Assembly (NCBI RefSeq): GCF_002157685.2
Contig: NZ_AP026738.1
Location: 2,914,001 to 2,978,000, forward strand
Origin: Comamonas thiooxydans
Lineage (GTDB): Bacteria > Pseudomonadota > Gammaproteobacteria > Burkholderiales > Burkholderiaceae_C
Length of the DNA: 64,000 nucleotides
Direction of reading: 5' to 3'
Part shown: positions 6,994 to 38,946 of the stretch, piece by piece
Position numbering within the stretch: position 1 is the stretch's first letter
Layout of the letters: the number at the start of each line of letters is the position of its first letter
The notes under the pieces: model-generated
What the model saw: only the letters and a program-made list of their open reading frames with translations
Told to the model about the DNA's origin: nothing
The model's database searches: none
Translations under genes and position numbers: made by a program

Positions 6994-7009
6994 ATTACAT
7001 TTTTGTCAT
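6994..7009. promoter_or_regulatory. CusR/CopR-like box before eptA
   Basis: ATTACA-TTTT-TGTCAT is a hybrid between the CusR-type half (TGTCAT) and the CopR-type half (ATTACA), with the same 4-bp spacing as the other boxes in this window. It begins 113 bp upstream of the eptA start, close to the 109-110 bp seen for the DUF4148 genes. Confidence 0.65.
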
Positions 7010-7072
7010 TTTTTGAGCGAAAAAAAACGTGGATCGTGTTACCACGAATCCACGCCAAGAAAATATTACTGA

Positions 7073-7420
7073 TTACCCAGCTATAGCTTGGTTACGAGCA
7101 TCTCGCTGCGAAGGGGTTTCTTTAATCAGTTCGTCGATAACTTGCTGACGTGTCTTTTCGGGCTCCGTACCTTTCGCCTCAGCTGGGTAGTTTCCGCTGC
7201 GCAGTCGATTGTCCCCGCCCTCTCGTACGGCATTCGCTGCTTCTTCACGAACTTGGTCACGGGTTCGAGAGCTCTTGAAATGCTCGGGGTATACTTTTAC
7301 ACCAGCCTCATTATTTGTGGGGTGCCAGTACGTATCTGCGACTGCGACGCCAGGCATTGCCATAACGGTTGCCATTGCGGCTGCGGCGGTGAGAGATGCA
7401 AAAATTTTACGGTGAGCCAT
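7073..7420 (-). CDS. DUF4148 secreted protein, copy 1
   Basis: A 115-residue exported protein with a clear signal peptide (AMPGVAVAD, cleavage near residue 28) and a charged, helical mature part. Repeated motifs of the type TRDQVREEA and TRQQVIDEL are characteristic of DUF4148, a small periplasmic family common in Burkholderiales and of unknown function. AAGGAG precedes ATG 7420. It has a paralogue at 35647-35991 with the same architecture. Each copy has a CusR-like box about 110 bp upstream, so both are probably metal-induced. The gene is downstream of czcA on the same strand but separated by a terminator. Confidence 0.88.
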   Translation of the reverse strand: MAHRKIFASLTAAAAMATVMAMPGVAVADTYWHPTNNEAGVKVYPEHFKSSRTRDQVREEAANAVREGGDNRLRSGNYPAEAKGTEPEKTRQQVIDELIKETPSQRDARNQAIAG

Positions 7421-7529
7421 TTAATACTCCTTAAGTGAATTGATTTTCTTCTCCATCTAAGAAAGTCGTCTATTCAGAGAAGATGGCTTAAGTGTAGAAA
7501 ATACCCACCGACAGATTGCCAACAGGAAT

Positions 7530-7545
7530 GTGACAATGTTGTCAT
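7530..7545. promoter_or_regulatory. CusR-like box before DUF4148 copy 1
   Basis: GTGACA-ATGT-TGTCAT fits the CusR/CzcR-type core GACAANNTTGTC exactly. It lies 110 bp upstream of the DUF4148 start codon, between that gene and the czcA terminator. Confidence 0.72.
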
Positions 7546-7565
7546 ATTAAGTATTGTTACAAGAA

Positions 7566-7596
7566 AAAAGCCATGGCCTTAGAGGCCATGGCTTTT
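7566..7596 (-). terminator. Terminator of the czcCBA operon
   Basis: A perfect 14-bp stem (AAAAGCCATGGCCT and its complement) with a 3-nt loop, starting 24 bp after the czcA stop. It is followed by a T-run on the minus strand, so it is a classical intrinsic terminator. Confidence 0.85.
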
Positions 7597-7620
7597 ATGA
7601 GGTGAATTGAACTACTTGTA

Positions 7621-10600
7621 TCAGGCTGGCTTTTCCTCAGTAGACGCCAACACCTGCTCATCCTCCGTCTCGGAGAGATCCTTGCGGTGTATCAAGCTAT
7701 AAAGCAATGGCAACACGAGAAGGGTCAGCAAAGTCGACGACAAGATCCCGCCGATCACCACTGTGGCCAAGGGGCGCTGAACTTCCGCGCCTGTGCCCGT
7801 TGCGATGGCCATCGGAACAAAGCCTAGCGATGCAACCAACGCGGTCATCAGAACTGGCCGCAGTCGGGTCAAAGCACCTTCAGTGACTGCTTCATATAGG
7901 CGCTTTCCTTCTTCGCGCAGCGATCGGATGTAGGCAATCATCACCAAGCCATTGAGCACTGCCACGCCTGACAGCGCGATAAACCCGATCGCTGCCGAGA
8001 TGGATAAAGGAATACCGCGCATCCAGAGCGCCAAGATGCCACCTGTCAGCGCAAACGGAATGCCCGTGAACACGATGAGACCATCACGAACATTGCCGAA
8101 CATTGCAAACAGCAAGACAAAGACCATCAGCAATGCTGCCGGCACAACAATCGTCAAGCGTTTTCTAGCCGACTCGAGGTTCTCGAAGGTTCCGCCCCAT
8201 CGGGTCCAGTAGCCGGCAGGCAGTTGCAGCGATTCGAGGCGTTGTTGTGCTTCTGTGACGAAAGATCCAATATCACGTCCGCGCACGTTGGCACTCACCA
8301 CGATGCGGCGCTTACCATCCTCTCGGCTCACCTGGTTAGGGCCTGGTGCGATATCAAAACTAGCCACGGCCGAAAGCGGAACAAAACCAAGTCGGCCATC
8401 CGTACCGCGTGGAAGCGCGATAGGTAGGCGTCCTATCGCTTCCATGTCATTGCGCACTTCGTCCGGCAAGCGAACCTGAATGTCGAATCGCTTGTCGCCT
8501 TCGAAAACTGTGCCGGCTTCACGACCGCCCAGTGCCGTACTGATGGTGTCTTGCACGTCACCCATGTTCAAACCATAGCGCGAGGCCTTCTCACGGTCGA
8601 TTTTCACGGTGAGCATTGGCAAGCCTGTGGTCTGTTCGACCTTGACTTCAGAGGCTCCAGAAATTTGCTGCAACATGCCTGCGACAGCTTGTGCGTTCTT
8701 CTCCAGCACGGTCATGTCGTCGCCAAAAATCTTTACAGCGACATCACTACGCACACCCGATATCAACTCATTGAAGCGCAGCTGAATGGGTTGAGAGAAC
8801 TCGAAATTGTTGCCTGGAACTCGATCTGCGGCGGCCTGAATTGCTGCCAGCAAATCGTCTCGTGTACGTGCCGGATCCGGCCATTCGGACTGCGGCTTAA
8901 GCATGATGTAGCCGTCCGAAATGTTCGGAGGCATCGGGTCAGAGGCAATCTCCGCGGTACCTGTACGAGCAAATACCCTGTCGATCTCAGGAAACTCTTT
9001 CTTCAAGGTTTTCTCGATCTGCATTTGCATCTCAAGGGACTGGGTCAGGCTGGTTCCTGGAATCCGCAGAGCCTGAATGGCGAAATCGCCCTCGTTGAGG
9101 TTTGGTGCAAATTCACTACCAAGACGCGTTGCCAGCAGCAGGCTTAGCACCACCGCCACACCAGCTGCAGTCAGAACAACTGCAGGAGCTCTCATGACGC
9201 GATGAAGGGCTGGTGCATAAACGCGACGTGCCCAAACCATGAGGCGATTTTCCTTCTCCGCAACCTTGTTACCCATGAAAAGAGCAATCGCCGCAGGAAT
9301 GAAGGTAATGGACAGCAGCATTGCGCCAGCAAGCGCGATCACCACAGTCAGCGCCATGGGATGGAACATCTTGCCCTCTACACCCGTGAGCGCAAAGATT
9401 GGCAAATAGACCACCATGATGATCAATTGTCCAAACAACAATGGCCGACGCGCTTCCTTGGCTGCAGCAAATACTTCGTGGAAGCGTTCACTGCGCGTCA
9501 AAGAGCGTCCGCGTGCTTCTTGCGCGTGGGCAAGACGACGCACGCAGTTCTCCACAATGACCACCGCGCCATCAATGATGATGCCGAAGTCAAGAGCGCC
9601 CAGACTCATCAAGTTGGCACTGACTTTGTATTGCACCATGCCAGTAAAGGTGAACAGCATGGACAACGGAATGATCAGCGCTGTAATCAGGGCCGCGCGG
9701 AGGTTGCCTAGGAAAAGGAAGAGGATGACAACAACTAAAGCCGCACCTTCCACCAAATTCTTCTTGACCGTTGCGATGGCTTTATCGACGAGGTTTGTGC
9801 GATCGTAGACCGTGATCGCTTTCACGCCTTCAGGAAGACTGCGGTTAATCTGCTCCATACGTGCAGCCACAGCCTGCGAGACCACACGGCTGTTCTCCCC
9901 GATCAGCATGAAGACCGTGCCAAGCACGACCTCTCGGCCGTTATCCGTGGCAGCTCCAGTGCGAAGCTCACGACCCAAGCCAACCTCTGCCAAATCACGA
10001 ATACGTATGGGCTGGCCTTGAGCCGAACCCACGATCACTTCTCGAATGTCAGCAATGCCAGAGACTTGACCTGGGGCACGGATCAAATACTGTTCACCTT
10101 GACGCTCAATGTATCCAGCTCCCACATTGGTATTGTTGCGTTCCAACGCAGCAACCAGGTCAGCAAGAGTGAAACCATAGGACGCCAGCTGTTCTGGGCG
10201 TGGCGAAACCAGATACTCTTTCGCGAACCCGCCAATAGAGTTGATTTCAGTGACACCAGGCACATTACGCAGTTGCGGTTTGATCACCCAGTCCTGTATC
10301 TCGCGCAGATCCATAGGTGTGTAAGGCGTTCCATCTGCCTTCTTTGCACCGTCCTCGGCCTCAACGGTCCAAAGATAGATCTCACCCAAACCTGTAGAGA
10401 TAGGTCCCAGCGTGGGAGTGACACCAGCGGGAAGATTGTCACGGGCCTGTTGGATGCGTTCGTTGACTAACTGGCGAGCAAAGTAGATGTCAGTGCCATC
10501 TTTAAACACTACTGTCACTTGCGACAGGCCGTAGCGCGACAGCGAGCGAGTCTGTTCCAGATTGGGCAGGCCGGCCATCACCGTTTCAATTGGGTAAGTG

Positions 10601-10794
10601 ACTCGCTGCTCAGTCTCAAGCGGTGAGTAGCCGCTGGCCTGCGTATTGATCTGTACCTGAACATTGGTAATGTCAGGTACAGCATCAATAGCGAGGCGTT
10701 GATAGTTGTATACGCCAAGAGCCGCTAGGGCCAGAACGGCAACCATGACCAGCCAGCGCTGCTCAATGGCAAATCGGATAATTCGTTCGAACAT
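7621..10794 (-). CDS. czcA: CzcA, RND cation/proton antiporter for Co/Zn/Cd
   Basis: A 1057-residue inner-membrane RND pump of the heavy-metal (HME) group. It drives divalent cations out of the periplasm and cytoplasm in exchange for protons, in complex with CzcB and CzcC. The membrane relay motif DFGIIIDGAVVIVEN is intact, with D402, D408 and E415 at exactly the CzcA positions. The N-terminus (MFERIIRFAIEQRWLV) and the large periplasmic loops follow CzcA closely. It is the last gene of czcCBA, 13 bp after czcB, and ends before a strong terminator. Length and motifs are complete. Confidence 0.97.
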   Translation of the reverse strand: MFERIIRFAIEQRWLVMVAVLALAALGVYNYQRLAIDAVPDITNVQVQINTQASGYSPLETEQRVTYPIETVMAGLPNLEQTRSLSRYGLSQVTVVFKDGTDIYFARQLVNERIQQARDNLPAGVTPTLGPISTGLGEIYLWTVEAEDGAKKADGTPYTPMDLREIQDWVIKPQLRNVPGVTEINSIGGFAKEYLVSPRPEQLASYGFTLADLVAALERNNTNVGAGYIERQGEQYLIRAPGQVSGIADIREVIVGSAQGQPIRIRDLAEVGLGRELRTGAATDNGREVVLGTVFMLIGENSRVVSQAVAARMEQINRSLPEGVKAITVYDRTNLVDKAIATVKKNLVEGAALVVVILFLFLGNLRAALITALIIPLSMLFTFTGMVQYKVSANLMSLGALDFGIIIDGAVVIVENCVRRLAHAQEARGRSLTRSERFHEVFAAAKEARRPLLFGQLIIMVVYLPIFALTGVEGKMFHPMALTVVIALAGAMLLSITFIPAAIALFMGNKVAEKENRLMVWARRVYAPALHRVMRAPAVVLTAAGVAVVLSLLLATRLGSEFAPNLNEGDFAIQALRIPGTSLTQSLEMQMQIEKTLKKEFPEIDRVFARTGTAEIASDPMPPNISDGYIMLKPQSEWPDPARTRDDLLAAIQAAADRVPGNNFEFSQPIQLRFNELISGVRSDVAVKIFGDDMTVLEKNAQAVAGMLQQISGASEVKVEQTTGLPMLTVKIDREKASRYGLNMGDVQDTISTALGGREAGTVFEGDKRFDIQVRLPDEVRNDMEAIGRLPIALPRGTDGRLGFVPLSAVASFDIAPGPNQVSREDGKRRIVVSANVRGRDIGSFVTEAQQRLESLQLPAGYWTRWGGTFENLESARKRLTIVVPAALLMVFVLLFAMFGNVRDGLIVFTGIPFALTGGILALWMRGIPLSISAAIGFIALSGVAVLNGLVMIAYIRSLREEGKRLYEAVTEGALTRLRPVLMTALVASLGFVPMAIATGTGAEVQRPLATVVIGGILSSTLLTLLVLPLLYSLIHRKDLSETEDEQVLASTEEKPA

Positions 10795-10807
10795 TTGCAG
10801 CCCTTGC

Positions 10808-12157
10808 TTAGTGTGCGTGCTCGGCTGTAGCCTTGCCCAGTTCGGCCTTAAGCATGAAGCTGCCTTCAGTCACATAGGACTGGCCGGACTTCAGCCCTTC
10901 AAGAATTTCTGTTGTCTGGGGATCTGAGCGACCAACGCGTACAGGTTGAGCTCGGAAACCCCCCTTGACGGGCACAAACACAACACTGTTTTGGCCGTCC
11001 AGACGCTGGATAGCACTGGAAGCTACCGCCACTGGCACTTGTTGCGAAGAGGCCGTCAACTCCACATTAACGAATAGACCTGGGCGCCACGCACCTTCAG
11101 GATTCTCTAGAGTGATTCGAGCAGGAGCGGTACGTGTTTCCTGGCCAATCAGAGCACCCACGTAAGCAACCACCCCAGTCGCAGACGACGAGAATGCTGT
11201 CGCTTTGACAGTTGCTTTTTCCCCTACCTTCACGGCGGGCAAGTCAGATGCTGCAACCCTCATTTCAGCCCAAACGGAGCGCAAGTCTGAGATTGTGAAA
11301 ACTTGGGTAGTGTCCTGAACAGCTTCACCGACGGCGAGATGCTTCTCGACGATCACTCCGTCAAAAGGAGCCCTTAATTCAAATCGGTTTAGTGCACCGC
11401 CACCGCCTCCGGCGCCGTTGGCTGCCAATTTCTGTTGAGCATTTGAAACGGCAATTTCTGCCTCGCGCAGTGTCTGCCGAGCCTGCAAGTAATCCTGTTC
11501 AGCCGATACCTTCTCCTCCCACAGCTTTTGCTCTCTGGCATAGCTTGTACGCGCCAGTGCTAAGCGTTGGCTAGCGGCTTGAAGTTCACTTCGTTGCTCA
11601 GAAACAGCCGCACTGCTCAACACAGCCAGCAACTGCCCCTTCTTTACAACCTGCCCGAGATTGGCGGGTACCGAGTCGACGACGCCAGGGACTCGAGGGA
11701 CAACGTGAGCCGTTTTGTCTTCGTTGAAGCGTATTTCCCCCGGAAGTTGCAGTACTGAGCGAACAGTTGCAGCGCCGACCTCTGCGGTTCGAATGCCTGC
11801 AGCCTGCATACGCTGCGAATCCATTTGGATTAGACCTTCATCGTCATCATGAGCACCTTCGGCGCTTTTCTTCTCTGCAGACTTGGCTCCGTCCTTTTGC
11901 TCTTTTTCATCATGGTGCTCACCATCTGCGTGTCCTTTTTCATCTTTGTGATCACCGCTTTGCTTCTCGCCGTGATGTTCTGTGTCTGCGTGGCTAGCGG
12001 CTTCTGAGTGCCCCTGACCTCCGGCACCTTTAGCACTGCTGCTGTCTGGACCACTGCGAAGAATTAGTGCAGCAGAAAGAGCGCCAACTACTAGGATTGC
12101 AGCAATTGCAATCTGAGTACGCCGAGTCCCAAATGGAGATGGTTTTGTATCGTTCAT
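10808..12157 (-). CDS. czcB: CzcB, periplasmic adaptor of the Czc pump
   Basis: A membrane-fusion (adaptor) protein that links CzcA to CzcC. I take ATG 12157 (MNDTKPSPFG, 449 residues) because it places one membrane anchor at residues ~14-34 and follows the czcC stop by 22 bp; a longer frame from 12226 would overlap czcC. The periplasmic segment after the anchor is rich in His, Asp and Glu (many HH, HAD and HGE clusters, roughly residues 40-110), as expected for metal capture. Then come the alpha-hairpin, lipoyl and beta-barrel parts (RAPFDGVIVEKHLAVGE). Confidence 0.93.
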   Translation of the reverse strand: MNDTKPSPFGTRRTQIAIAAILVVGALSAALILRSGPDSSSAKGAGGQGHSEAASHADTEHHGEKQSGDHKDEKGHADGEHHDEKEQKDGAKSAEKKSAEGAHDDDEGLIQMDSQRMQAAGIRTAEVGAATVRSVLQLPGEIRFNEDKTAHVVPRVPGVVDSVPANLGQVVKKGQLLAVLSSAAVSEQRSELQAASQRLALARTSYAREQKLWEEKVSAEQDYLQARQTLREAEIAVSNAQQKLAANGAGGGGGALNRFELRAPFDGVIVEKHLAVGEAVQDTTQVFTISDLRSVWAEMRVAASDLPAVKVGEKATVKATAFSSSATGVVAYVGALIGQETRTAPARITLENPEGAWRPGLFVNVELTASSQQVPVAVASSAIQRLDGQNSVVFVPVKGGFRAQPVRVGRSDPQTTEILEGLKSGQSYVTEGSFMLKAELGKATAEHAH

Positions 12158-12179
12158 GTTGATGATCTGTGCAAAAAAC

Positions 12180-13457
12180 TTACTCGTCTGTTGTGCCCAA
12201 CAAGCGTTCGATATCGGCCGAAGCACGATGTGTGGCCATTAACTGGTCCAGGTATTGACTACGTACATCAAACAAAGAGCGTTGCGCGTCAAGTACGTCC
12301 AGATAGCCGAATTTCCCTAGCGCAAATCCTTTGCTTGCCGCCTCATAGGCGACTTGTGCAGTCGGCAGCACGCGTTCAGACAGTTGGATAGCTTGTTTAC
12401 GACTTGCCTCTAGCGTCTCTCGCGCCGCATAAAGTTGAGACTGAAGTTCCAACCGGGTAGCTAGCAAGCGCTCTTCAGCTTGGTCAGCCAGGCGGAGGGC
12501 TTGCAACTGATTTCCTCGATTGGTATCGAGCACAGGCAAAGGAATGGAGACGCCGACTACGAGTTGATTGCCGGTCTCTTGAGCGCGCTTCATACCTAGA
12601 CTCACCGTTGGGTCAGGAATTCGCTTTGCGCGCTCCAGATCTGCGGTCGCCCGGCTCTGTTCAACAGTGAAGCGAGCTTGCTGAATGGAAGGCGACTGCT
12701 CCAAGCGGCTTTGAAGAACCCCAATTTCCGGAACAGTAGGCAACGCGTCAAGTTTGCCTTGCGCATCACCAAATACAGGGCCTCCCTCTCCTATAAGGGC
12801 CTGTAATTGTTGACGAGCCACTCGTTTTGCGGCCTGAGCTTGGGCTTGCTCCAGCTCTGCACTGGACTCAGCGACACTGGCCCGGTTGGCCTCTAGGGGC
12901 GCTGCCTTGCCCGCTGCTACACGCTTCGATGCAGCCTCACGCGCGCTTCGAGCGATGTCAAGAGTTTGTCCTGCGAGGACTTCACGCTGCTGTGCGACTA
13001 ACAACCCGAAGAATGCGAGTCGGACATCTGCGACAAGATTAGCTTTGGCGGCATCCAGCTCCGCCTCAGCCACATCTCGGCCACGTGCTGCAGCACGCAT
13101 GCGCGCATCGCGCTTGCCACCGATTTCCAGCATTTGGGTCCATTGAACCGTCGTGGTACGTTTATCTCTGCTCGTATCTTCTTGTGAATACGAGAGCGCA
13201 GGGTTAGGCCTCGCCTTACTTTGCAGAACGGCTCCATCGCTTGCCTCAAGACCGCGCTGGGCAGCTCGTAAACGAGGGTGTTGGTCGATAGCGCGTGCTA
13301 CTGCAGTGTCCAGAGTCAGTGGTGCCAGAGACGCCTTATTGGCAGGATTGTCCTGCGCTATGCCTGCCACGCCAGTTAAAGCCAAACTGGTGGACAACAA
13401 CGCATGACGCAACGCACTAGCTGCTCGGCCAGCACGATGAGACGACGAAGAAATCAT
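12180..13457 (-). CDS. czcC: CzcC, outer-membrane factor of the Czc pump
   Basis: A 425-residue TolC-like outer-membrane channel. It has a signal peptide at the N-terminus (ALLSTSLALTGVAGIAQ) and two repeated halves of long amphipathic helices, the OEP fold. It is the first gene of czcCBA and gives the efflux complex its exit. AGGAG stands before ATG 13457. The promoter region is shared with the divergent czcRS genes and holds a perfect 16-bp palindrome 124 bp upstream. Confidence 0.93.
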   Translation of the reverse strand: MISSSSHRAGRAASALRHALLSTSLALTGVAGIAQDNPANKASLAPLTLDTAVARAIDQHPRLRAAQRGLEASDGAVLQSKARPNPALSYSQEDTSRDKRTTTVQWTQMLEIGGKRDARMRAAARGRDVAEAELDAAKANLVADVRLAFFGLLVAQQREVLAGQTLDIARSAREAASKRVAAGKAAPLEANRASVAESSAELEQAQAQAAKRVARQQLQALIGEGGPVFGDAQGKLDALPTVPEIGVLQSRLEQSPSIQQARFTVEQSRATADLERAKRIPDPTVSLGMKRAQETGNQLVVGVSIPLPVLDTNRGNQLQALRLADQAEERLLATRLELQSQLYAARETLEASRKQAIQLSERVLPTAQVAYEAASKGFALGKFGYLDVLDAQRSLFDVRSQYLDQLMATHRASADIERLLGTTDE

Positions 13458-13580
13458 TGTTAAAACTCCTACCCGTGCAATCCAAAGTCAGCCGGGCGAT
13501 ACATTGCCCAGGTGAGGAATAGAAAGCGGGTGGGCGCTGCCACTATAATAAAGTGCTCCCCTCACCATCCTGACAGCCGG

Positions 13581-13596
13581 ATGACAAATTTGTCAT
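13581..13596. promoter_or_regulatory. CusR-type palindrome between czcC and czcR
   Basis: ATGACAAATTTGTCAT is a perfect palindrome followed by TTT. It matches the known CusR box core (ATGACAANNTTGTCATTTT). It is 124 bp from czcC and 37 bp from czcR, so one site could serve both promoters, giving CzcR-driven induction and autoregulation. Confidence 0.85.
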
Positions 13597-13632: not shown

Positions 13633-14325
13633 ATGAAAATCCTGGTTGTAGAAGATGAGATCAAGCTCGCCGATTACCTAAACAAGGGTCTGGCGGAAGA
13701 GGGCTTCACTGTGGATGTAGCCCACAACGGTATTGACGGTCTGCACCTGGCCAGTGAAATGGACTATGACCTGATCGTGCTTGACGGCATGCTTCCGGGC
13801 ATCGATGGCCTAGCCGTGCTAGCTGCGCTGAGGCAAACGAAACAAACACCTGTACTGATGTTGACTGCCCGTGGCCAGGTTGAGGATCGCGTCAAGGGAC
13901 TGCAGTGTGGCGCCGATGACTATCTCGTTAAGCCATTTGCATTTTCTGAACTGGTCGCACGCCTGCATGTTCTATTACGGCGCAGTGGCCCCAGCGTTGC
14001 CCAAGCCGCCCCCGAAGCGACGACTCTGCGCTTAGCTGACTTAGAGTTAGACCTAATTCGTCGTAGGGCCACGCGGGCGGGCCAGAGAATCGAGCTCACG
14101 GCCAAAGAGTTCAATTTGCTTAGCCTTCTATTACGCCGCCAAGGGGAAGTGTTAACACGAACAGAGTTGGCATCTCAGGTTTGGGATATGAATTTCGACA
14201 GTGAGACCAACGTGGTAGAGGTCGCTATCCGACGCCTGCGGCTAAAGCTTGATCAGCCTTTTGAGCAACATCTCCTCCACACCGTCCGTGGCATGGGCTA
14301 TGTGCTCGAATCTCGCACAACATGA
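13633..14325 (+). CDS. czcR: CzcR, metal-responsive response regulator (OmpR family)
   Basis: A 230-residue OmpR/PhoB-type regulator. The receiver domain (1-115) has the acidic pocket (E7, D8), phosphoacceptor D51 in VLDGMLPG, Thr in MLTARG and Lys in YLVKPF. The winged-helix DNA-binding domain fills residues 130-228 and ends in [11 protein letters not shown]. It is divergent from czcCBA and overlaps czcS by 4 bp (ATGA). It belongs to the CzcR/CusR/CopR subgroup that recognises palindromes of the kind found in this intergenic region. Confidence 0.94.
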
Positions 14326-15716
14326 GCAAGACCGCTGCACCACATTTAGCTCGACGTTTAGCCCGCGCCTTAGCACTGCAAACCATTGTTGGCCTCGGTT
14401 TTGTATGCATTGCTGTCTATTTCGTGATCTCCGTCACGCTGTCGGAACGTCAGCAAGACACCTTAGATCACAAGAAAACAGCAATCGAGCACCTGTTAAG
14501 CGAGAGCCGAGGGGTTCACTCCCCGGAGGCCTTGAACCACATGCTTAACGACTTCGTCACGGGGCATGACGAACTGTCTTTACGCCTGGTGCCAACCTCC
14601 GGTAAAAGCGCATTTGAACTTTTGCGCCAACCTGAAGATGACGACCGGGTTGCAGTTCGCAAATTTTCAGTGGAAGTTCCGACAGTTAACGACGGCCTGC
14701 AGCCAATGCAAGCGGTCCTGTTGCTAGACCGTAGACCAGATGACCGACTGCTTAATCGTCTGGCCTGGACCCTGGGCATTGCCGCCGTGGCGGGTGCATT
14801 GCTGGTCTCATTTGCGAGCACATGGCTTGTTCGCATAGGACTCAAGCCTTTACGCCTACTGGTGGATCAAACGCGAAGCCTTTCTGCGCAAGACTTGCAT
14901 CGCCGTTTAGATGATAGCCATCAACCTCAAGAATTAAGACCATTGATCGCACAGTTCAATGCATTGCTTGACCGACTGGCCATCGCCTATCAACAAATGG
15001 AGGCGTTCAATGCTGACGTGGCACACGAACTAAACACACCGTTGACCACCTTGATCAGTAGTTGCGAGTTGGCGCTTCGTAAACCGCGTAGTGCTGTTGA
15101 ACTACAGGACATCTTGGCCTCCAACCTAGAGGATCTACAGCGCATGGCCGGAATCGTGGCTGACATGCTGTTTCTGTCACACGCAGACCGCGGTACTGAA
15201 GCGCGGCGATCCGCCAAAGTGAGTCTTGCAGAGCTTGCCTCAGAAGTGGCCGAGTTCCATGAGGCAGTGCTTCAAGAAGCGCACCTTCAAGTTCTAATCG
15301 ATGGAGATGCAAGTGTTGCTGTGGATGCGCGTTTGGTTCGCCGTGCACTATCCAATCTTTTAGGCAACGCTTCACGCTATGCAGAAGCCGGATCAACGAT
15401 CACTATCGAGATCTCCCAAAGCGTAGTGGAGACACCCGATGGCAAACGTGACAACGTTAGCATTGCGGTGATCAACCGAGGAGCGGAGATCGATCCCATC
15501 CATCTGCCACGCCTGTTTGATCGGTTCTATCGTGCTGATGCGTCCCGCGCACATGCAAATCTCAATCACGGCTTAGGACTGGCCATCGTTGCGGCTATAG
15601 CGCGGATGCACGGCGGTACCGCTTTCGCGACATCCTCAAGCGGGATCACCAAAATTGGGATTTCATTACCTGCCTCACCTAAGACAACGCCACACATCTT
15701 TGAATCTCAGTCGTGA
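14322..15716 (+). CDS. czcS: CzcS, metal-sensing histidine kinase
   Basis: A 464-residue membrane sensor kinase. Two helices (about 20-40 and 145-170) frame a periplasmic sensor loop. A HAMP linker follows, then the dimerisation helix with the phospho-accepting His in [12 protein letters not shown], and an ATPase domain with N (LLGNASRYA), G1 (INRGAEIDP) and G2 (HGLGLAIV) boxes. The heavy-metal sensor kinase type (CusS/CopS/CzcS) and its position behind czcR identify it. It should phosphorylate CzcR when zinc, cadmium or cobalt builds up in the periplasm. Confidence 0.93.
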
Positions 15717-15879: not shown

Positions 15880-17487
15880 GGGGATGCGGACAAAAACTTG
15901 GACTACCAGGAGGTAGTTCATGTACTCATACGAAGACAGGATTCTTGCAGTTGAGCTTTACATCAAGCTTGGCTTGCGTGTCAGAGCCACAATTCGCCAG
16001 TTGGGATACCCAACCAAGAACGCATTGAAAGGCTGGTATCAGCACTACCTGAAGCATCAGGATTTGCCAGCGAGCCAAGCGCCAAGGGCACCAAAATATT
16101 CGCTGCAGCAAAGACAGGTTGCGGTTGCTCATTACCTCGCGCACGATCGCTGTATTGCAGCAACGATGAGGGCTTTGGGTTACCCGGGTCGAGGAACGTT
16201 GACTGCGTGGGTTCGGCACGACTGCCCCGAGACCAGCAAATCGATAGTGGGCAGATCTTGGCCGGCTACAAAGCCTGATGCCTTGATGTGTGAGGGAGTG
16301 GTGCAACTGTGTTCCCGCCAATCAAGTGCACAGGAGATTGCGGACAAGTTAGGGGTATGTAGGGGGACCTTGTACAACTGGAAAAATCAGTTGCTTGGCC
16401 CTTGTGCCCCTGTCGCAATGAAACACAGTCCAAAGCGATCACCAGTGTTGGATGAAGCAGCACTCAGGCGCCAAGTTGAATCATTGCGCCAGGATGTTCG
16501 GCGGCTGAAGATAGAACGTGAGCTTCTCAAGCAGGCCCATGAAATCTTAAAAAATGGGGCTGACATTGATCTGCATAGGCTGGCAAACAAAGATAAGGCT
16601 GTGCTGGTTGACGCGTTGCACGGGCAGTATGAATTGCCAGAACTACTTTCTCTTGTTGGACTTGCTAGAAGCTCGTATTTTTACCATCGTGCCCGGCTGA
16701 AGCTGGCTGACAAATACTTGGATGTACGCCGAAGCATCACCGAGATCTTCGACAACAACTACCGTTGCTATGGATATCGCAGAGTGCAGGCATCCTTGCT
16801 CAAGGAGTGCACGGGCATCTCAGAGAAGGTGGTGCGTCGGCTGATGAAGCAGGAAGGGTTGATCGTGGCCAAGCCCAAACGCCGCAGATATAACTCATAC
16901 CTTGGAGAGATAGGTGCTGCCCCTCAAAACCTCATCAATCGAGACTTCCATGCTGCTGCGCCCAATGAGAAGTGGCTCACCGACATTACTGAATTCCAGA
17001 TTCCTGCTGGTAAGGTTTACCTGTCGCCAGTCATTGATTGCTTTGACGGGCTGGTGGTGAGCTGGTCGATTGGGACTCATCCCAATGCAAATCTCGTCAA
17101 CACAATGCTGGATGCGGCCATTGATGCTGTTCAAGGTAGCGAGAGCCGCCCTGTGATTCATTCTGATCGTGGAGCTCACTACCGATGGCCCGGCTGGCTC
17201 TCGAGGGTCCATGATGCAAAGTTGGTTCGCTCGATGTCTCGCAAAGGGTGCTCGCCAGACAATGCTGCATGCGAAGGCTTCTTTGGAAGGCTGAAAATAG
17301 AGCTGTTCTATCCCTGCAACTGGCAATCAACAACGATTGAGCAGTTCATTGAAGCTGTCGATACTTACATTCATTGGTACAACGAAAAACGTATCAAGGT
17401 ATCTCTGGGACGTTTAAGTCCTGTGGAATACCGACAAGAACTTGGTCTAGCCGCATAAAACCAGTCCAAGTTTTTATCCGCACCCCC
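15880..17487 (+). mobile_element. IS3-family insertion sequence, complete
   Basis: An element of about 1.6 kb bounded by 24-bp near-perfect inverted repeats: GGGGATGCGGACAAAAACTT at 15880 and its partner ending at 17487 (GTCCAAGTTTTTATCCGCAC). One transposase gene fills it. I see no clear target duplication at the ends. A diverged, truncated relative lies at 4818-5134, which shows that this family has been active in the region more than once. Confidence 0.88.
15920..17458 (+). CDS. IS3-family transposase (single open frame)
   Basis: A 512-residue transposase. The N-terminal half has helix-turn-helix regions (SYEDRILAVELYIKLG; ATIRQLGYPTKNALKGW; SSAQEIADKLGVCRGTLYNW) and a leucine-rich coiled segment (LRQDVRRLKIERELLKQ). 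The C-terminal half is the DDE integrase core: D in TDITEF, D in HSDRGAHY, E in AACEGFFGRLK. Most IS3 elements make OrfAB by frameshifting, whereas here both parts are in one frame. AGGAGG precedes the ATG. It is probably functional. Confidence 0.93.
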   Translation: MYSYEDRILAVELYIKLGLRVRATIRQLGYPTKNALKGWYQHYLKHQDLPASQAPRAPKYSLQQRQVAVAHYLAHDRCIAATMRALGYPGRGTLTAWVRHDCPETSKSIVGRSWPATKPDALMCEGVVQLCSRQSSAQEIADKLGVCRGTLYNWKNQLLGPCAPVAMKHSPKRSPVLDEAALRRQVESLRQDVRRLKIERELLKQAHEILKNGADIDLHRLANKDKAVLVDALHGQYELPELLSLVGLARSSYFYHRARLKLADKYLDVRRSITEIFDNNYRCYGYRRVQASLLKECTGISEKVVRRLMKQEGLIVAKPKRRRYNSYLGEIGAAPQNLINRDFHAAAPNEKWLTDITEFQIPAGKVYLSPVIDCFDGLVVSWSIGTHPNANLVNTMLDAAIDAVQGSESRPVIHSDRGAHYRWPGWLSRVHDAKLVRSMSRKGCSPDNAACEGFFGRLKIELFYPCNWQSTTIEQFIEAVDTYIHWYNEKRIKVSLGRLSPVEYRQELGLAA

Positions 17488-20745: not shown

Positions 20746-20803
20746 AGGATTTTTCTAGTAAATTTCGAAGCTTCAATGGTAGCGAAGTTGTCCTCTCAGC
20801 AAG

Positions 20804-20819
20804 ATTACATTTTTGACAC
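20804..20819. promoter_or_regulatory. Degenerate CopR-like box, proximal to flgB
   Basis: ATTACA-TTTT-TGACAC: the first half is exact, the second half degenerate. The same 16-bp pattern recurs 42 bp further upstream, four helical turns away, which suggests two regulator dimers on one face. Confidence 0.45.
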
Positions 20820-20845
20820 TATTCAGCCATTTACATGGTCTGAAG

Positions 20846-20861
20846 ATTACATTTCTGACAC
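20846..20861. promoter_or_regulatory. Degenerate CopR-like box, distal to flgB
   Basis: ATTACA-TTTC-TGACAC, a near-identical repeat of the proximal box, 101 bp before the flgB start. A further inverted half site, GTAATC, follows at 20868. Confidence 0.45.
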
Positions 20862-24071: not shown

Positions 24072-24473
24072 TCAATGGCGCTCGAGCTCATTTTTCGCAA
24101 CGTAGATCTTTAGCGTGCTACCTGCAAACGCTGCAGGTGCGATCTTCGACAGGTCGACGGGCCTATGACCCATCACATCAAATTTCCAGATGAACTGTTC
24201 CTTGCCGTTGGTGAACTCGACCGTCTCTCCACATACAAGATTGAGATATTGAGTGCTTCGTGTTGTGTCTACAACGCGTGAGACCTGAGACTCAGCACCT
24301 GCTCGTCCAAAAGTTCTGTCTGCAGTACGTGTGGTCGAGCTGGTACTTTCGAAGGACTTTGTAGTCGCGCTTTCCGATGGACCCAAGACGCCACTTTCAT
24401 TTGCAGATGCAGACATTGAAACGGTGGCGCAGGACAGCACGATTGAAGCCAGAAATACGAGATTAGTTTTCAT
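24072..24473 (-). CDS. czcE: CzcE-like periplasmic metal-binding protein
   Basis: A 133-residue exported protein with a signal peptide (VLSCATVSMSASAN, cleavage near residue 25), a Ser/Thr-rich linker and a C-terminal domain. That domain has the CzcE pattern: CGETVEFTNGKEQFIWKFD, then DLSKIAP and IYVAKN. CzcE of Cupriavidus binds copper and other cations in the periplasm and is linked to czc regulation. It is convergent with cadR. A CopR-like box lies 103 bp upstream and a second one follows toward the divergent PEtN transferase. The family call rests on motif resemblance only. Confidence 0.72.
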   Translation of the reverse strand: MKTNLVFLASIVLSCATVSMSASANESGVLGPSESATTKSFESTSSTTRTADRTFGRAGAESQVSRVVDTTRSTQYLNLVCGETVEFTNGKEQFIWKFDVMGHRPVDLSKIAPAAFAGSTLKIYVAKNELERH

Positions 24474-24575
24474 GATAAAGATTCCTTGATCAATTACTTG
24501 AAGAACGTCTGAGTGCTTTTCTACCCAGACACATCAAATATATAGATAGGCACTTTACGCAATATTGTCTGCAAC

Positions 24576-24591
24576 ATGATATTTTTGTAAT
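24576..24591. promoter_or_regulatory. CopR/CusR-like box before czcE
   Basis: Read toward czcE, ATTACA-AAAA-TATCAT has one mismatch to the hybrid box in front of eptA. It starts 103 bp upstream of the czcE start codon. Confidence 0.58.
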
Positions 24592-24611: not shown

Positions 24612-24627
24612 ATTACTAAAATGTAAT
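24612..24627. promoter_or_regulatory. CopR-like box before the second PEtN transferase
   Basis: ATTACT-AAAA-TGTAAT differs from the copA box ends (ATTACA/TGTAAT) by one base. It ends 98 bp before the PEtN transferase start and lies 20 bp from the czcE box, so the two may act as a divergent pair. Confidence 0.62.
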
Positions 24628-24724
24628 CTGAATGTCAGATTTCTGTCGGTATTGCACACATAGAGTTCTGTGCCCCTATTCCAAATCGAATTTCGATATT
24701 TCCATTAGGGTTAATAGGATTTCT

Positions 24725-26485
24725 ATGAGCGCACCAGCATCCGAAGATAATCTTAAATTTCACCGGTCAAGAATAGCATTGTTTTTTCAAAAATCTACCG
24801 ATCGCCATAAGCTATGGGTAACTATTATTGCTCTACTTGTGATGCAAGTTGTTTTTGCATCTCTAGGATATGAAGGCAGAAAAATATTACAGATAAGCGT
24901 CCTACTTATACCGACTCTATTATTGTTACTAATTCCAATCAATAACTCTAGATTAAATCTAATTAGAGCATTTCTTGTTTGGAGTTTTGTTCTTGTATTT
25001 TTATTAGACTCAGCCGTCCGAGCGCATCTCATCTCAATTTATGCTGCTGCGCCAGATAGTACGATGGTGGTAAGTGCACTTGCAAACACAAATACATCGG
25101 AAATGGGAGGCTATATCTCCACACACATCCGTGATTTCAGTGGATCTAGCATTATTTTACTTATTTCAGCGGGTGTTGCTCTCTGGTTATCTTTAAAAGG
25201 GGCAAGGAAAAGAACGAAGGTCTCGAAGATTGAGCTGATTGCTTTATCCATCATCATTTTGATATCCGCCGTTTCATACATCAGCAAGCCATGGAGAAGG
25301 ATAAATCCTCTAATTTTTTGGTCTAATTTAGCTGAATCCGTAAAGAATACGAAAGATAGCTGGGCATCATATGGAAAAGAACGCGCCTTAGCACAAAGGT
25401 CAGCAAAAAGTGAGATTCCTTCGATTGCTAGAAAAGACAAATCCACCGTAGTTCTTATTATTTCTGAAAGCATAAATCGAGATAACATGCGCATTTATGG
25501 CTACGAAAGAAATACGACGCCGATGCTCGAAAAGCTTCAAAAAGATATGGGCGATAGATTTCTCGTTATCCGTAACTCATGGTCCACGGAAGCAACCACT
25601 ATTCCTGCCATTGATAGCATGATGAACTTCACAACTGCTGAAACAGATACGAAACTAAACATAATTGCTCTCGCAAAAGAAGCAGGATATAAAACTTGGT
25701 GGATAAGCAATCATGATGATATTGCAATTACGCAAAAGCATGCAGCAATGGCCGATGTGATTTCCATGGAAAATAATAAACCAGGTAGATCTAGCAATTC
25801 ACTTGATGAGATTTTATTACCATCATATGAGAATGCCCTTAAAGATTCACACCCTCGGAAATTGATTGTTTTACATATGCTGGGTGCTCATCCTCATTAT
25901 CGTCTGCGATACCCGGAAAAGCAGCCTATATTTACCGATGATGAAGTATCAAGAATAATGTCTGCGGCTGAACGTTCAATGTGGGTTCAGGAATTTAGAA
26001 ATGACTACGATTCAGCTGTTGTTTATCAAGACAGGGTAGTTGCATCTGTCTTTGAAAAATTAATAAGTTCCCCATCCAGTGCAGATGACTATAAGTCCAT
26101 TATTTACGTATCAGATCACGGACAAGAAGTTGGACATCAAACAAATAAAGTTGGTCACAGTCCAAGTACTGCATCCGGTTATAAAATACCCACAATAATT
26201 TGGACATCGACTGGAACTGATGTTGCTTCTAAAAATATATCTGATAGACCATTTAGAGCTGACTGGCTCGCTTGGACCATGTCGGATTTAATGGCATTAA
26301 GATGGAATAGTTACGAGCCATCTCGAAGCATTATCAACCCAAGCTATAGCTGGGTTAGCCCAAGCTTACCTATAAAAGACCCAATAACTGGGGCGTTGTT
26401 GCACATATCAGCCCCAGGCCAGATTTCCCCAACCCCAGGCGCGGCTAGGCCACAGCCACCGTCTGCGGGCAGCCCAGTTCAGTAA
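24725..26485 (+). CDS. Second phosphoethanolamine transferase (sulfatase family), 3' end altered by an IS
   Basis: A 586-codon frame starting at ATG 24725 (AGGA 5 bp before it). There are about five N-terminal helices, then a periplasmic sulfatase domain with ISESINRDNMRIYGY (metal Glu), WSTEATTIPAIDS (nucleophile Thr), LHMLGAHPHYRLRYP and YVSDHGQEVG. It lacks the cysteine pairs of EptA/MCR, so it resembles the CptA/EptC/OpgE side of the family and may modify core sugars or another glycan. From base 26390 (residue ~556) the frame is IS5-derived and the composition turns GC-rich, so the native C-terminus is lost or replaced. All catalytic motifs lie upstream of this point. Confidence 0.85.
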   Translation: MSAPASEDNLKFHRSRIALFFQKSTDRHKLWVTIIALLVMQVVFASLGYEGRKILQISVLLIPTLLLLLIPINNSRLNLIRAFLVWSFVLVFLLDSAVRAHLISIYAAAPDSTMVVSALANTNTSEMGGYISTHIRDFSGSSIILLISAGVALWLSLKGARKRTKVSKIELIALSIIILISAVSYISKPWRRINPLIFWSNLAESVKNTKDSWASYGKERALAQRSAKSEIPSIARKDKSTVVLIISESINRDNMRIYGYERNTTPMLEKLQKDMGDRFLVIRNSWSTEATTIPAIDSMMNFTTAETDTKLNIIALAKEAGYKTWWISNHDDIAITQKHAAMADVISMENNKPGRSSNSLDEILLPSYENALKDSHPRKLIVLHMLGAHPHYRLRYPEKQPIFTDDEVSRIMSAAERSMWVQEFRNDYDSAVVYQDRVVASVFEKLISSPSSADDYKSIIYVSDHGQEVGHQTNKVGHSPSTASGYKIPTIIWTSTGTDVASKNISDRPFRADWLAWTMSDLMALRWNSYEPSRSIINPSYSWVSPSLPIKDPITGALLHISAPGQISPTPGAARPQPPSAGSPVQ

Positions 26486-35646: not shown

Positions 35647-35991
35647 TCAGCCTGCAAATGATTGGAGGCGAGCATCTCGCGCAGCTGGCGATTCATTACG
35701 CGTTTCGTTGATCACTTGCTCGCGGGTTTTGCTCGATCCTGTCTCGGGAGTTCCACGTGGGAAATTGCTTTCACCGTAAGAAAGGCGGCCCTGCTTCATG
35801 GCAGCTTCAGTCTCGGCCTTGACTTGAGCTCGGGTTTTCTGGCTTTCAAAGTGCTGCGGATGCACGATCACGCCTTGTTCATTGTTGGCTGGATGCTCGT
35901 AGGCTGCAGAGGCCATTCCAGGAAGAGCCAGGGTGACAACGGCAGCAACGCTTGCGAGTACGGAGGAAATGGAGATGCGGTTTTGAGACAT
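35647..35991 (-). CDS. DUF4148 secreted protein, copy 2
   Basis: A 114-residue exported protein with signal peptide (VTLALPGMASAAYEHP, cleavage near residue 29) and the DUF4148 repeats (TRAQVKAETEAAMKQG; TREQVINETRNESP). It parallels the copy at 7073-7420 in length, the N-terminal HPANNEQGV segment and ending (ARDARLQSFAG). AGGAG precedes ATG 35991. A CusR-like box begins 109 bp upstream, almost the same spacing as for copy 1. The function of the family is unknown. Confidence 0.88.
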   Translation of the reverse strand: MSQNRISISSVLASVAAVVTLALPGMASAAYEHPANNEQGVIVHPQHFESQKTRAQVKAETEAAMKQGRLSYGESNFPRGTPETGSSKTREQVINETRNESPAARDARLQSFAG

Positions 35992-36099
35992 GGTTGGCTC
36001 CTAAGACAGTTGATGAACACATCTCCTGGGCCTTGATCAAGGTGAGGAGAAGATGAGTTGATCTTAGGAGTCGGAGCCCAACAAAATCAGGACTGCCCG

Positions 36100-36115
36100 G
36101 TGACATTGTTGTCAG
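36100..36115. promoter_or_regulatory. CusR-like box before DUF4148 copy 2
   Basis: GTGACA-TTGT-TGTCAG, a near-copy of the box at 7530, 109 bp upstream of the start codon. Confidence 0.65.
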
Positions 36116-36288: not shown

Positions 36289-36573
36289 ATGGCTATTTTT
36301 CGCATCAATGACATGAAATGTGGTGCCTGTGCCGCGCGGATTCAGCGCTCCATTTTGGCGATCGATGATGAAGCAAAGATCGGAGTGAATGCGCGAGATA
36401 AAACGGTGCAAGTCTCTGGCGATCTGAGCGACGCCGACTACATGTTGGCTATCCAGACCGCTGGATACACTCCAGAATTATTGGCGTTAGCCGAAGCCGA
36501 GCAGGCAAATGCTGAGAAGCCGCAGACGAAATGCTGCGGCTCAACTTCAGCAAAGACATCTTGCTGCGGATAG
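36289..36573 (+). CDS. CopZ-like HMA metallochaperone with cysteine-rich tail
   Basis: A 94-residue cytoplasmic protein: an HMA fold (residues 1-68) whose metal loop is MKCGACAARI (C11, C14), and an unusual tail ending in KCCGSTSAKTSCCG, which offers four more thiols. AGGAG precedes the ATG. The CueR-type promoter points to copper induction. It would pass Cu(I) to the P-type ATPase at 43733, whose N-terminus lacks an HMA domain. The Cys tail may store or sense metal. Mercury-binding MerP-like function is less likely because there is no signal peptide. Confidence 0.85.
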   Translation: MAIFRINDMKCGACAARIQRSILAIDDEAKIGVNARDKTVQVSGDLSDADYMLAIQTAGYTPELLALAEAEQANAEKPQTKCCGSTSAKTSCCG

Positions 36574-36613
36574 TGTCTTCTTGCTCTCAAGAAAAGCCTG
36601 TTTTCTGATCTGC

Positions 36614-38017
36614 TTAGGAAGTCGGCTGCGGAGTGGGGAATTTCAAGGTGAAGCGAGTTCGTCCATTGGCTGAAGTAGCGGTAATGGAGCCTCCATGAGC
36701 TTCGGCAATTGCTCGGGTGATTGCCAAACCCAATCCGCTACCGTCTGAGTCCGGATGAGCCCTGGAAGGGTCAGCTCGGTAGAAGCGGTCAAATAACCTG
36801 GGCAGGACTTTGGGATCAATGTCCTGCCCTGTATTTTCCACAGTGACAAGTGTCCAGGAAGCTGCGGTCTCAATGTCGATGGTGACCATGCCTGCATGCG
36901 GCGTGTAGCGCAAAGCATTAGATAGCAAATTACTCACAGCACGATGGAACATCAGTCGATCACCATCAACGAGTCCATCGCCTTTTAACTTCAAATGAAT
37001 TTGCTTTTCTTCAGCGACAGCCTCGTAGAACTCCAGCAATGCATACGATTCTTGCTGTGCCGAAAATTGCTCCTTGCGCGGCAGGCTTACGCCCCGTTCA
37101 GTTTTGGCCAGAAACAGCATGTCTGACACCATACGAGCCAAACGCTGAAACTCTTCGGCATTCGAGGCAAGAATGTCTCGGTATGTCGCGGCATCACGCT
37201 TGGACGCCAGCACAACCTGAGTCTGCGTCAACAGGTTGCTGATGGGCGTACGCAGTTCATGGGCCAAATCAGACGCGAAATCTGTCAGTCGCTGAAAATC
37301 GTCCTGCAACCGATCCAGCATGCGATTGAGCTCATGCGCCAAATCGGCCATTTCTACGGGTACAGCCTCGACCGGCATGCGTTCACTCATCTTCTGTCCC
37401 GTCACAACGGCCGCACGTGATTTCATCTCTCGCAGCGGTGCTAGCCCTTGTCGCGCCGCGAGCCAAGACAGAAGTGAGCACAGCAAAATTGCTGCGATCA
37501 CATAAATGGCAAAGCTTGTGCGAATTCCGTTGAGGAATTGAATGTGATGCTTTGTGTCTGCTGCGATCACTATCTTTAATGGCGACGGTGCGTAGGCCGG
37601 GAGCGTCTCAAAGCTCAAGGTGTGGAATTCTGCATCTGCGTGCCGCCACACCCCAAACGATCCTTCCTTGTCGATAAAAGTCGAATTGCGATCCGGCACT
37701 GCAAAGCCGGATGCGGGCGATTGAAATACGGTTTCTCCTTGGGCATCTTTCACCTGGACTTGAAGATCCTCGTGATAGTTCAGTGCCTCATTTAGACGCC
37801 AACGAGCATCATCGACCGACTTGGTGTTCTGGAGAATTTTCTCGATCAAATGGCGCTTGTCCTGAAGCGTCATTCGGTCCAATTCCACGAAATGCTTTTC
37901 TGTAACGACTAGAAATAGGCCGCCTAAACCTAGCACTACGGCTGCCGCAACAGCCGTGAAGAAGAGGGCCAAGCGAATCGTTAAAGAAAGCTTTCCCTTG
38001 CGAGTGAGACGCTGCAC
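36614..38017 (-). CDS. copS: CopS/CusS-type copper-sensing histidine kinase
   Basis: A 467-residue heavy-metal sensor kinase starting at GTG 38017, directly after the copR stop. Two membrane helices (about 12-35 and 165-185) frame a periplasmic domain of ~130 residues; HAMP follows. The phospho-accepting His is in LAHELRTPISNL; N box NLLSNALRYTP, G1 ENTGQDIDP and G2 GSGLGLAI are intact. Its position next to copR and the cop genes indicates that it senses periplasmic copper or silver. Confidence 0.93.
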   Translation of the reverse strand: MQRLTRKGKLSLTIRLALFFTAVAAAVVLGLGGLFLVVTEKHFVELDRMTLQDKRHLIEKILQNTKSVDDARWRLNEALNYHEDLQVQVKDAQGETVFQSPASGFAVPDRNSTFIDKEGSFGVWRHADAEFHTLSFETLPAYAPSPLKIVIAADTKHHIQFLNGIRTSFAIYVIAAILLCSLLSWLAARQGLAPLREMKSRAAVVTGQKMSERMPVEAVPVEMADLAHELNRMLDRLQDDFQRLTDFASDLAHELRTPISNLLTQTQVVLASKRDAATYRDILASNAEEFQRLARMVSDMLFLAKTERGVSLPRKEQFSAQQESYALLEFYEAVAEEKQIHLKLKGDGLVDGDRLMFHRAVSNLLSNALRYTPHAGMVTIDIETAASWTLVTVENTGQDIDPKVLPRLFDRFYRADPSRAHPDSDGSGLGLAITRAIAEAHGGSITATSANGRTRFTLKFPTPQPTS

Positions 38018-38701
38018 CTATTCCTCCTCGGGGACTTCAAGCACATAGCCCATTCCTCGTACGGTCTGGATCAGTTTGATCGAGTGGCCTTCGTCAATTT
38101 TTGCCCGCAGACGGCGCATGGCCACCTCAATGACGTTGGTGTCGCTGTCGAAATTCATGTCCCATACCTGCGATGCGATCAATGAACGTGGCAGCACTTC
38201 ACCATGTCGGCGCATCAGCAACTCCAAGAGTCCGAACTCTTTGGCTGTGAGGTCAACACGTTTGCCGTTGCGAGATACGCGGCGACGCAGCAGGTCTAGC
38301 TCGAGATCTGCAACAGTCAGAGTAGTACCTTCATTGGCCGGATGTCCACGTCTAAGAATAATGCGAACTCTGGCGAGTAGCTCTGCGAAAGAAAACGGCT
38401 TTACCAGGTAATCATCAGCGCCGAGCTCTAGTCCTTTGACACGGTCCTCGACATGGTCCCGTGCAGTAAGAAACAGGACCGGCATATGTAGTCCTCGATC
38501 ACGCAAAGACTGGAGCACCTGCCAACCATTGAGGCCCGGCAGCATAACATCCAAGATCACCAAGGAGTACTCCCCTTGCAAAGCCAGATGTAAGCCGTCT
38601 GAGCCATTTGGGACGAGGTCAGCAATGTAGCCAGCCTCGGTCAATCCCTGGCGCAGGTACTCACCTGTTTTAGGCTCATCTTCAACAATCAAAATCCTCA
38701 T
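38018..38701 (-). CDS. copR: CopR/CusR-type response regulator
   Basis: A 227-residue OmpR-family regulator: receiver domain with E7, D8, phosphoacceptor D51 (VILDVMLPG), LTARD and DYLVKPF, then a winged helix ending in [13 protein letters not shown]. It is divergent from copABCD with a 365-bp gap that holds two inverted-repeat boxes. It is closely similar in layout to CzcR in this window, so the two may bind overlapping sets of sites. Confidence 0.94.
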
Positions 38702-38764
38702 GTACTCGCTCCGCTGCAGTGGACGATCAAGAGTGTGCCGAGTTTGAAGCCCTCTGACATGAAG

Positions 38765-38780
38765 ATAAGAAAAATGTAAT
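38765..38780. promoter_or_regulatory. Degenerate CopR-like box before copR
   Basis: ATAAGA-AAAA-TGTAAT keeps one exact half site and the 4-bp spacing, 64 bp upstream of the copR start. It would allow autoregulation. Confidence 0.42.
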
Positions 38781-38930
38781 GTTCCTGAAATCCTGGCGAT
38801 AGAAAGGCCAACACTGCCTCGTTGTTCCTTCCTGGGAAGTCATCAAGCGTGGCTAGCAGAGTGAACCTTTTGACTGCATCGAAGGCATTTCTGGATAGAA
38901 GCCCTCCGTCGCACCAAACATGACGCGAGC

Positions 38931-38946
38931 ATTACATGAATGTAAT
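38931..38946. promoter_or_regulatory. CopR box before copA
   Basis: ATTACA-TGAA-TGTAAT, two exact inverted half sites, ends 120 bp before the copA start. It is the best example in the window of the ATTACA/TGTAAT variant. Confidence 0.75.

Follow-up and report, generated by a model that had tools for sequence, protein, structure and literature searches.

We analyzed a 64,000-nt stretch of the Comamonas thiooxydans genome (NCBI RefSeq assembly GCF_002157685.2, contig NZ_AP026738.1, positions 2,914,001 to 2,978,000), hereafter the window, in which a 16-bp inverted repeat, ATKACANNNNTGTMAT (hereafter the box), precedes both metal genes and genes for phosphoethanolamine (PEtN) transferases. On the minus strand lie eptA (5238..6881), encoding a lipid A PEtN transferase of 547 aa (559.8 bits against NF028537, cut-off 500; 464.9 against the narrower EptA model PRK11598, under its cut-off of 660), a gene for a small periplasmic DUF4148 protein (7073..7420; PF13663) and the efflux genes czcA, czcB and czcC (7621..13457), followed on the plus strand by czcR (13633-14325) and czcS (14322-15716). 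Further along are czcE (24072..24473, minus strand; PF16986) and a second PEtN transferase gene (24725..26485, plus strand), whose 586-aa product of the sulfatase fold family is CptA-like according to the annotation of a near-identical record and scores 209.8 bits against the CptA model, under the cut-off of 404. A second gene for a small periplasmic DUF4148 protein (35647..35991) as well as copS (36614-38017) and copR (38018-38701) lie on the minus strand, and the multicopper oxidase gene copA (39067..41010) on the plus strand; the two DUF4148 proteins are CopQ/PrsQ-like by type and may belong to the family of PrsQ2. On the basis of the box, an additional half-site, their spacing, their genome-wide specificity and a recognition helix shared by the regulators, we consider it probable that CzcR/CopR-type response regulators control all these promoters, including those of the PEtN transferase genes, as a single regulon, with binding and induction as its predictions.

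The box is a 6-4-6 inverted repeat and corresponds to the motif AT(T/G)ACA-N4-TGT(A/C)AT of the original prediction, whose site coordinates all proved correct when the sequences were checked. It occurs without mismatch at 6994, 13581 and 38931, with one mismatch at 7530, 24576 and 24612, and with two at 36100, 20804, 20846 and 38765. The proposed check for an excess over shuffled DNA was run: the window contains 16 matches with two or fewer mismatches, compared with 5.79 ± 2.28 expected, and none of 100 shuffles reached 16 or more. The gap between box and start codon was 112 bp for eptA, 109 and 108 bp for the DUF4148 genes, 123 bp for czcC, 102 bp for czcE, 97 bp for the second PEtN transferase (start at 24725) and 120 bp for copA (start at 39067), which bears out the earlier claim of a clustered distance in seven promoters (97-123 bp). 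Judged by its sequence, the motif is a real box of CzcR/CopR/CusR-type regulators.

The genome was scanned as a single contig of 5.91 Mb, with the reversed motif as a control. The 16-mer with one or fewer mismatches was rejected as proof, because it was found 24 times versus 17 per strand in the reversed control; the short box alone is therefore weak evidence. Its perfect form occurs at eight places, six of which are upstream of genes for metal regulators, efflux proteins, CopA or PEtN transferases, namely at genome positions 2906600 (regulator RR-A), 2920994 (eptA), 2927581 (czcR/czcC), 2952931 (copA/copR), 3097671 (a third PEtN transferase) and 5456261 (regulator RR-D and an outer membrane efflux protein, TolC). 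The remaining two lie inside coding sequences, identified as hscA and rpe by reading the translations.

The box forms part of a longer layout, in which it is followed by 5 bp, a third half-site in direct orientation on the promoter side, exactly 22 bp and a −10-like YANNNT. The third half-site is TGTCAT or TGTCAG in the promoters of eptA and both CptA-like PEtN transferase genes (the second and the third), and is weak at the DUF4148 genes and czcE. With three or fewer mismatches, the 27-mer ATKACAN4TGTMATN5TGTCAT has 18 matches in the genome versus 4 in the reversed control, and all seven matches with two or fewer belong to the promoters of eptA, of both CptA-like PEtN genes, of czcC, copR and copA, and of the outer membrane efflux gene beside RR-D. 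The eptA site is the only one in the genome with no mismatch; the sites of czcC, the third PEtN gene and copR (distal) carry one, and those of the second PEtN gene, copA and RR-D/TolC carry two.

The distance to the −10 element was also constant. Of 12 promoters of this genome, 11 have a TANNNT exactly 22 bp past the 27-mer and one has CAAACT there; in 5000 shuffles TANNNT never occurred more than five times at any one offset. An earlier scan over offsets 15-21 had found no excess of −10 elements (1093 of 2000 shuffles were equally high). Since the rule was first noticed in these promoters, the fair test is provided by 19 sites from other genomes of the order, which are independent of its discovery: all 19 have YANNNT at offset 22 (6 TA and 13 CA). 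Among 29 loci from other genomes of the genus, which include close copies of the same promoters, 21 have TANNNT there. Positions predicted from the −10 element place the 27-mer at about −61 to −35; the box would then cover roughly −61 to −46, and the third half-site roughly −40 to −35.

To score the whole layout, we constructed a weight matrix of 21 scored positions, trained on 18 unique order-level 55-mers that all come from families other than that of Comamonas; as these training sites were picked by the 27-mer, they are independent in genes and species, but not in consensus. The eight highest scores in the window were those of czcC (13542..13596, minus strand; 37.1), eptA (6955..7009, minus strand; 36.9; box ATGACAAAAATGTAAT, half-site TGTCAT, 22 bp, TAGGAT), the second PEtN transferase (24612..24666, plus strand; 35.2; ATTACTAAAATGTAAT, TGTCAG, TAGAGT), copA (38931-38985, plus strand; 30.1), copR distal (38892-38946, minus strand; 26.5), copR proximal (38726..38780, minus strand; 25.8), the first DUF4148 gene (7491..7545, minus strand; 20.9; box ATGACAACATTGTCAC, TGTTGG, TACACT) and the weaker czcE element (24537..24591, minus strand; 18.1), in which a core G is replaced by A in one half-site. 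The copA and distal copR elements read both ways from one shared palindrome (38892..38985), and the czcC palindrome likewise lies 36 bp before czcR on the opposite strand. The next scores in the window were 13.7 and below, and the second DUF4148 gene (36061..36115, minus strand) scored 11.6. Outside the window, the third PEtN transferase scored 40.4, RR-D/efflux 31.3 and the gene for a small protein beside RR-A 22.9. The background maximum was 8.5 in 400 kb of evenly spaced other DNA of the same genome, and the best score in three window shuffles was 14.6; the second DUF4148 site therefore rests on its conservation, not on the matrix.

That a regulator of the ColR or PmrA type, known for PEtN genes, is in control here and the resemblance to the metal box incidental seems to us very unlikely. 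In Pseudomonas, the zinc-activated ColRS system induces the PEtN transferases eptA/cptA, according to the available parts of the reports (PMC4074579, PMC9952513); this is a metal-sensing two-component system that drives PEtN genes, with another regulator and, in those parts, no link to a czc/cop box. The eptA and PEtN promoters in Comamonas match those of czcC and copA over all 21 positions of a matrix trained without them.

The layout extends beyond this genome. In 399 genomes of the order, exact ATKACAN4TGTMATN5TGTCAK has 22 matches (3 in this genome and 19 in 18 others) versus none in the control. A response-regulator gene starts on the divergent side of 14 of these 19 sites (13 recognized by a translation pattern and one, L137, by reading), and the genes downstream, also identified by reading, include several outer membrane efflux proteins and one copA. 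In 53 Comamonas genomes, the 27-mer with one or fewer mismatches gave 56 matches in 25 genomes, again with none in the control. Around the 29 genus-level loci outside this genome, every neighbor that could be read was a regulator or efflux gene, copA, eptA or the second PEtN gene; others were left unread. Sites of the eptA type and of the second PEtN type occur together, in the same seven Comamonas genomes, this one included.

Beyond czcR and copR, the genome encodes three further regulators of the same family. All five regulators above the TIGR01387 cut-off, CzcR among them, have a box nearby (0-2 mismatches), compared with none of the five next-best regulators, and by one route the boxes of RR-A and CopR were perfect. 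The recognition region of all five contains N-F-D-S-x-T-N-V, which is absent from five controls, and the same box is thus plausibly readable by each of them; given the shared recognition helix, cross-regulation is likely. RR-A shares its box (the site scoring 22.9) with the gene for a secreted-looking 96-aa protein that has no Pfam match (L016:10197-10487).

We give slightly less than an even chance to an arrangement in which the PEtN boxes are genuine, but each answers to one local regulator and one metal, so that several small regulons with look-alike boxes exist side by side with no cross-regulation. The half-sites do differ, being ATGACA/TGTCAT at czc and ATTACA/TGTAAT at cop and two PEtN genes, and the available part of a study of Pseudomonas CopR, CusR and CzcR (PMC11195947) describes similar targets in vitro but few shared in vivo. 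However, the recognition helices of the five regulators are nearly identical, the eptA box mixes both types of half-site, and the same source reports one palindrome, cusR-pcoA2, common to CusR, CopR and CzcR, together with a CopR consensus of CTGACAn5GTAAT. The main text of that study mentions neither phosphoethanolamine nor eptA.

The original prediction had equated the perfect form with the CusR box. The motif is real, but its nearest published match is the footprinted box of AgrR from Cupriavidus metallidurans NA4. As described in the available part of that report (PMC7380067), AgrR binds ATKACANNNNTGTMAT, a promoter-side direct half-site is needed for full activation, and the footprint at prsQ2 spans −65 to −35; electrophoretic mobility shift assay targets included agrR, prsQ2, czcI2, an ompC-like (porin) gene, czcL-czcR2 and copA2-copR2. 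The 16-bp consensus is therefore identical, the proximal half-site is direct in both cases, the predicted placement matches, and the targets likewise include a CopQ-like small periplasmic protein (prsQ2), the copA2-copR2 region, czcL-czcR2 and the regulator's own gene. The Comamonas genome differs in having five regulators and in having the layout before three PEtN transferase genes and czcE, whereas the word phosphoethanolamine does not appear in the main text of the AgrR report. In C. metallidurans CH34, the available part of another report (PMC7563307) describes a 37-bp motif in cop1, located ~50 bp upstream of copper-induced starts and probably the CopR1 site, and 21 copQ homologues, many of them metal-induced; our comparison with this motif was by description, not by letters, and the main text contains neither phosphoethanolamine nor eptA. 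It is known from Cupriavidus that efflux genes and copA, and in part CopQ-like small proteins, stand under this box. Judged from sequence, the regulon is largely of a known kind, with PEtN transferases as a new class of targets; their place under the box seems to be new, as we found no report of it in a literature search that left most subscription journals outside.

A box was found upstream of 3 of the 11 sulfatase-family genes in the genome, all three being PEtN transferases beside metal genes (one EptA and two CptA-like); at another sulfatase-family locus (L037), a site with one mismatch lies not upstream but downstream of the gene. The third PEtN gene lies ~120 kb from the window, in a second arrangement of PEtN transferase, DUF4148-like gene, czcR and czcS (L017:7804-12167), with boxes before the first three; at one or fewer mismatches, none of the other 52 Comamonas genomes showed the box of this PEtN gene. 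In a protein search, 9 of 62 PEtN upstream regions scored above 12, and all nine, the three from this genome among them, are copies from Comamonas islands. In PEtN homologues of other genera, the box was not found to be conserved: among 49 loci, one with one or fewer mismatches stood before three, all in this genome, the others having at least three mismatches. In 28 PEtN loci from genome contigs, such a box was present only in L109 and L110, where the second PEtN element is kept, and L132 has a two-mismatch site 272 bp upstream. The layout is also preserved, with a score of 35.2 each, before the relatives of the second PEtN gene from Comamonas terrae (86%) and C. testosteroni (95%). A 50% relative of eptA (L102) retains the order DUF4148-eptA, with a box before the DUF4148 gene (21.5) and a three-mismatch remnant before eptA.

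Clusters of metal genes surround the boxed PEtN transferases, and Comamonas genomes share a near-identical eptA island, as would be expected if the PEtN and DUF4148 boxes were passengers, captured with metal islands during horizontal assembly and of no present benefit. We nevertheless regard this explanation as improbable, since the full layout stands at three separate promoters in two differently diverged PEtN families. In addition, in eptA relatives with 93% protein identity the half-sites are unchanged and the 27-mer differs only in its 5-bp spacer (L100, L101), and the −10 element changes from TAGGAT to TACTAT, still a TANNNT (L175, L184).

Linkage of PEtN genes with metal genes was also observed outside Comamonas. 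In Delftia tsuruhatensis NBRC 16741 (L118), a PEtN gene, read as two overlapping pieces of frame on a short contig, lies directly behind czcR-czcS-like genes; the heavy-metal sensor kinase scores 309.1 against TIGR01386 (cut-off 292.55), the regulator scores 277.7 against TIGR01387, just under the cut-off of 279.2, and boxes facing both ways (27.9 and 16.4) precede the regulator. On the Pseudomonas putida plasmid pKF715B (L189), a PEtN gene lies beside a cation diffusion facilitator gene, with a site of 16.6 at ~250 bp before the annotated start. Of five plasmid records with PEtN loci, this was the only one with a scoring site, the other four having none. Three more Pseudomonas plasmid matches had the same match score. 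The Delftia gene order and the one Pseudomonas plasmid hint, at the level of sequence, at an independent linkage between PEtN genes, metal genes and the box. A published case of such proximity is the mcr-12 plasmid of Pigmentiphaga litoralis, in which a PEtN transferase is flanked by czcCBA and other metal operons; in the available part of that article (PMC13373230), however, the authors find constitutive expression and propose no shared regulation.

The DUF4148 genes were examined in 29 loci of the 53 Comamonas genomes, sorted into two types by reading the proteins. The core TKACAN4TGTMA was present without mismatch in 12 of 19 loci of the CopQ-like type and with one or fewer in 16 of 19, compared with 0 of 10 (one or fewer mismatches) for the other type; correspondingly, the matrix gave at least 9.9 in 16 of the 19 and at most 4.5 in the other type. 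In this genome, three of five DUF4148 genes above the cut-off have TGACA-N4-TGTCA upstream, and a sixth (24.3 bits, cut-off 27), located between the third PEtN gene and RR-E, has ATGACAATGTAGTCAT 103 bp upstream. The site of the second DUF4148 gene is unchanged in L205 and L209 (0/16 changed positions versus 23/115 in the flanks), and in more distant relatives 2/16 positions are changed versus 29-30/111.

The original prediction joined metal and surface genes through one type of box. By sequence, this holds for czc, cop, czcE, the DUF4148 genes and the two PEtN transferases of the window, but neither score nor layout supports it for the flagellar gene flgB. Read towards flgB, its two sites (20804 and 20846) score 8.7 and 6.2, compared with the background maximum of 8.5; they lack the inverted-repeat core, as their first half-site reads TGTCA instead of TKACA, and neither a third half-site nor a TANNNT at offset 22 follows. 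We therefore rejected flgB as a regulon member. The flgB element is nevertheless conserved: its two 16-bp repeats, 42 bp apart (20804..20861, minus strand; within 20801-20875), are kept in eight other island copies with drifting flanks, the changed bases being 3/75 versus 18/107 in the flanks for L227 and L109, and 2/75 versus 10/107 for L188. At two or fewer mismatches, no third full copy of GATTACATTTNTGACA was found in the genome, apart from the eptA box (one mismatch) and three two-mismatch places, and therefore no second regulon is visible. The element stands before flgB and genes for a PAP2 phosphatase and a diacylglycerol kinase (dgkA), and we do not think that this group is regulated by the metal box; something else probably regulates it. 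The PAP2 and diacylglycerol kinase genes (19109-20228) lie near two PEtN genes but under this different promoter element, and they accompany PEtN transferases on other plasmids too. The metal island also contains an IS3 family transposase gene (15920-17458). L188 (NZ_CP079804.1) is a 19.65-kb linear record from an insect sample, labelled as a Klebsiella variicola plasmid, that matches this Comamonas island at ~96% identity across 47% of the query, possibly as a result of mislabelling or contamination.

In the regulation that we propose, the 16-bp inverted repeat (roughly −61 to −46) would be bound by a regulator dimer and the half-site (roughly −40 to −35) by one more subunit, adjoining RNA polymerase, which would then use the −10 element at its constant distance of 22 bp from the half-site. 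Cross-regulation would be expected among the five paralogous regulators, which have a common recognition helix. In the Comamonas lineage, two types of PEtN transferase (one EptA gene and two CptA-like genes) would have been brought under the box, so that excess periplasmic metal would switch on the addition of PEtN to lipopolysaccharide, besides efflux and metal-binding proteins. The presumed benefit is that this addition would lower the negative charge of lipopolysaccharide and its metal binding. We consider the chances evenly balanced for the wider proposal, namely that PEtN transferases are under direct induction by CzcR/CopR-type regulators acting at the box, that this wiring arose more than once (in two Comamonas PEtN families, in the Delftia czcR-czcS-PEtN order and on the Pseudomonas plasmid), and that CopQ-like DUF4148 proteins are its constant companions.

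Several observations weigh against a regulon of this kind. The other 53 of the 62 PEtN upstream regions score −3.0 or lower, a paralogue in the same genome (L065) among them, and a PEtN transferase lies downstream of none of the 19 order-level sites, as far as these could be read. The promoters of the eptA relatives are too close for a test of conservation (2/27 changed bases versus 9/164), as is that of the second PEtN gene in L227 (1/43 versus 15/208). Furthermore, according to the available part of the report (PMC10127602), czcICBA itself is not under the control of CzcRS in C. metallidurans, so that a box does not guarantee the expected target in each species.

If the proposed regulon is correct, the layout of box, half-site, 22 bp and −10 element would provide a 55-bp rule of sufficient precision for predicting the metal regulon across hundreds of genomes of Burkholderiales, and the uncharacterized CopQ-like DUF4148 proteins would gain a function by regulation. 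Polymyxin-type resistance is often found alongside metal resistance, for which co-selection is the usual explanation. With the proposed regulon, zinc, cadmium or copper could directly switch on lipid A modification, which would be co-regulation and not mere co-selection. As the same rigid layout stands before pump genes and before genes predicted to alter surface charge, metals may directly trigger remodelling of the cell surface.

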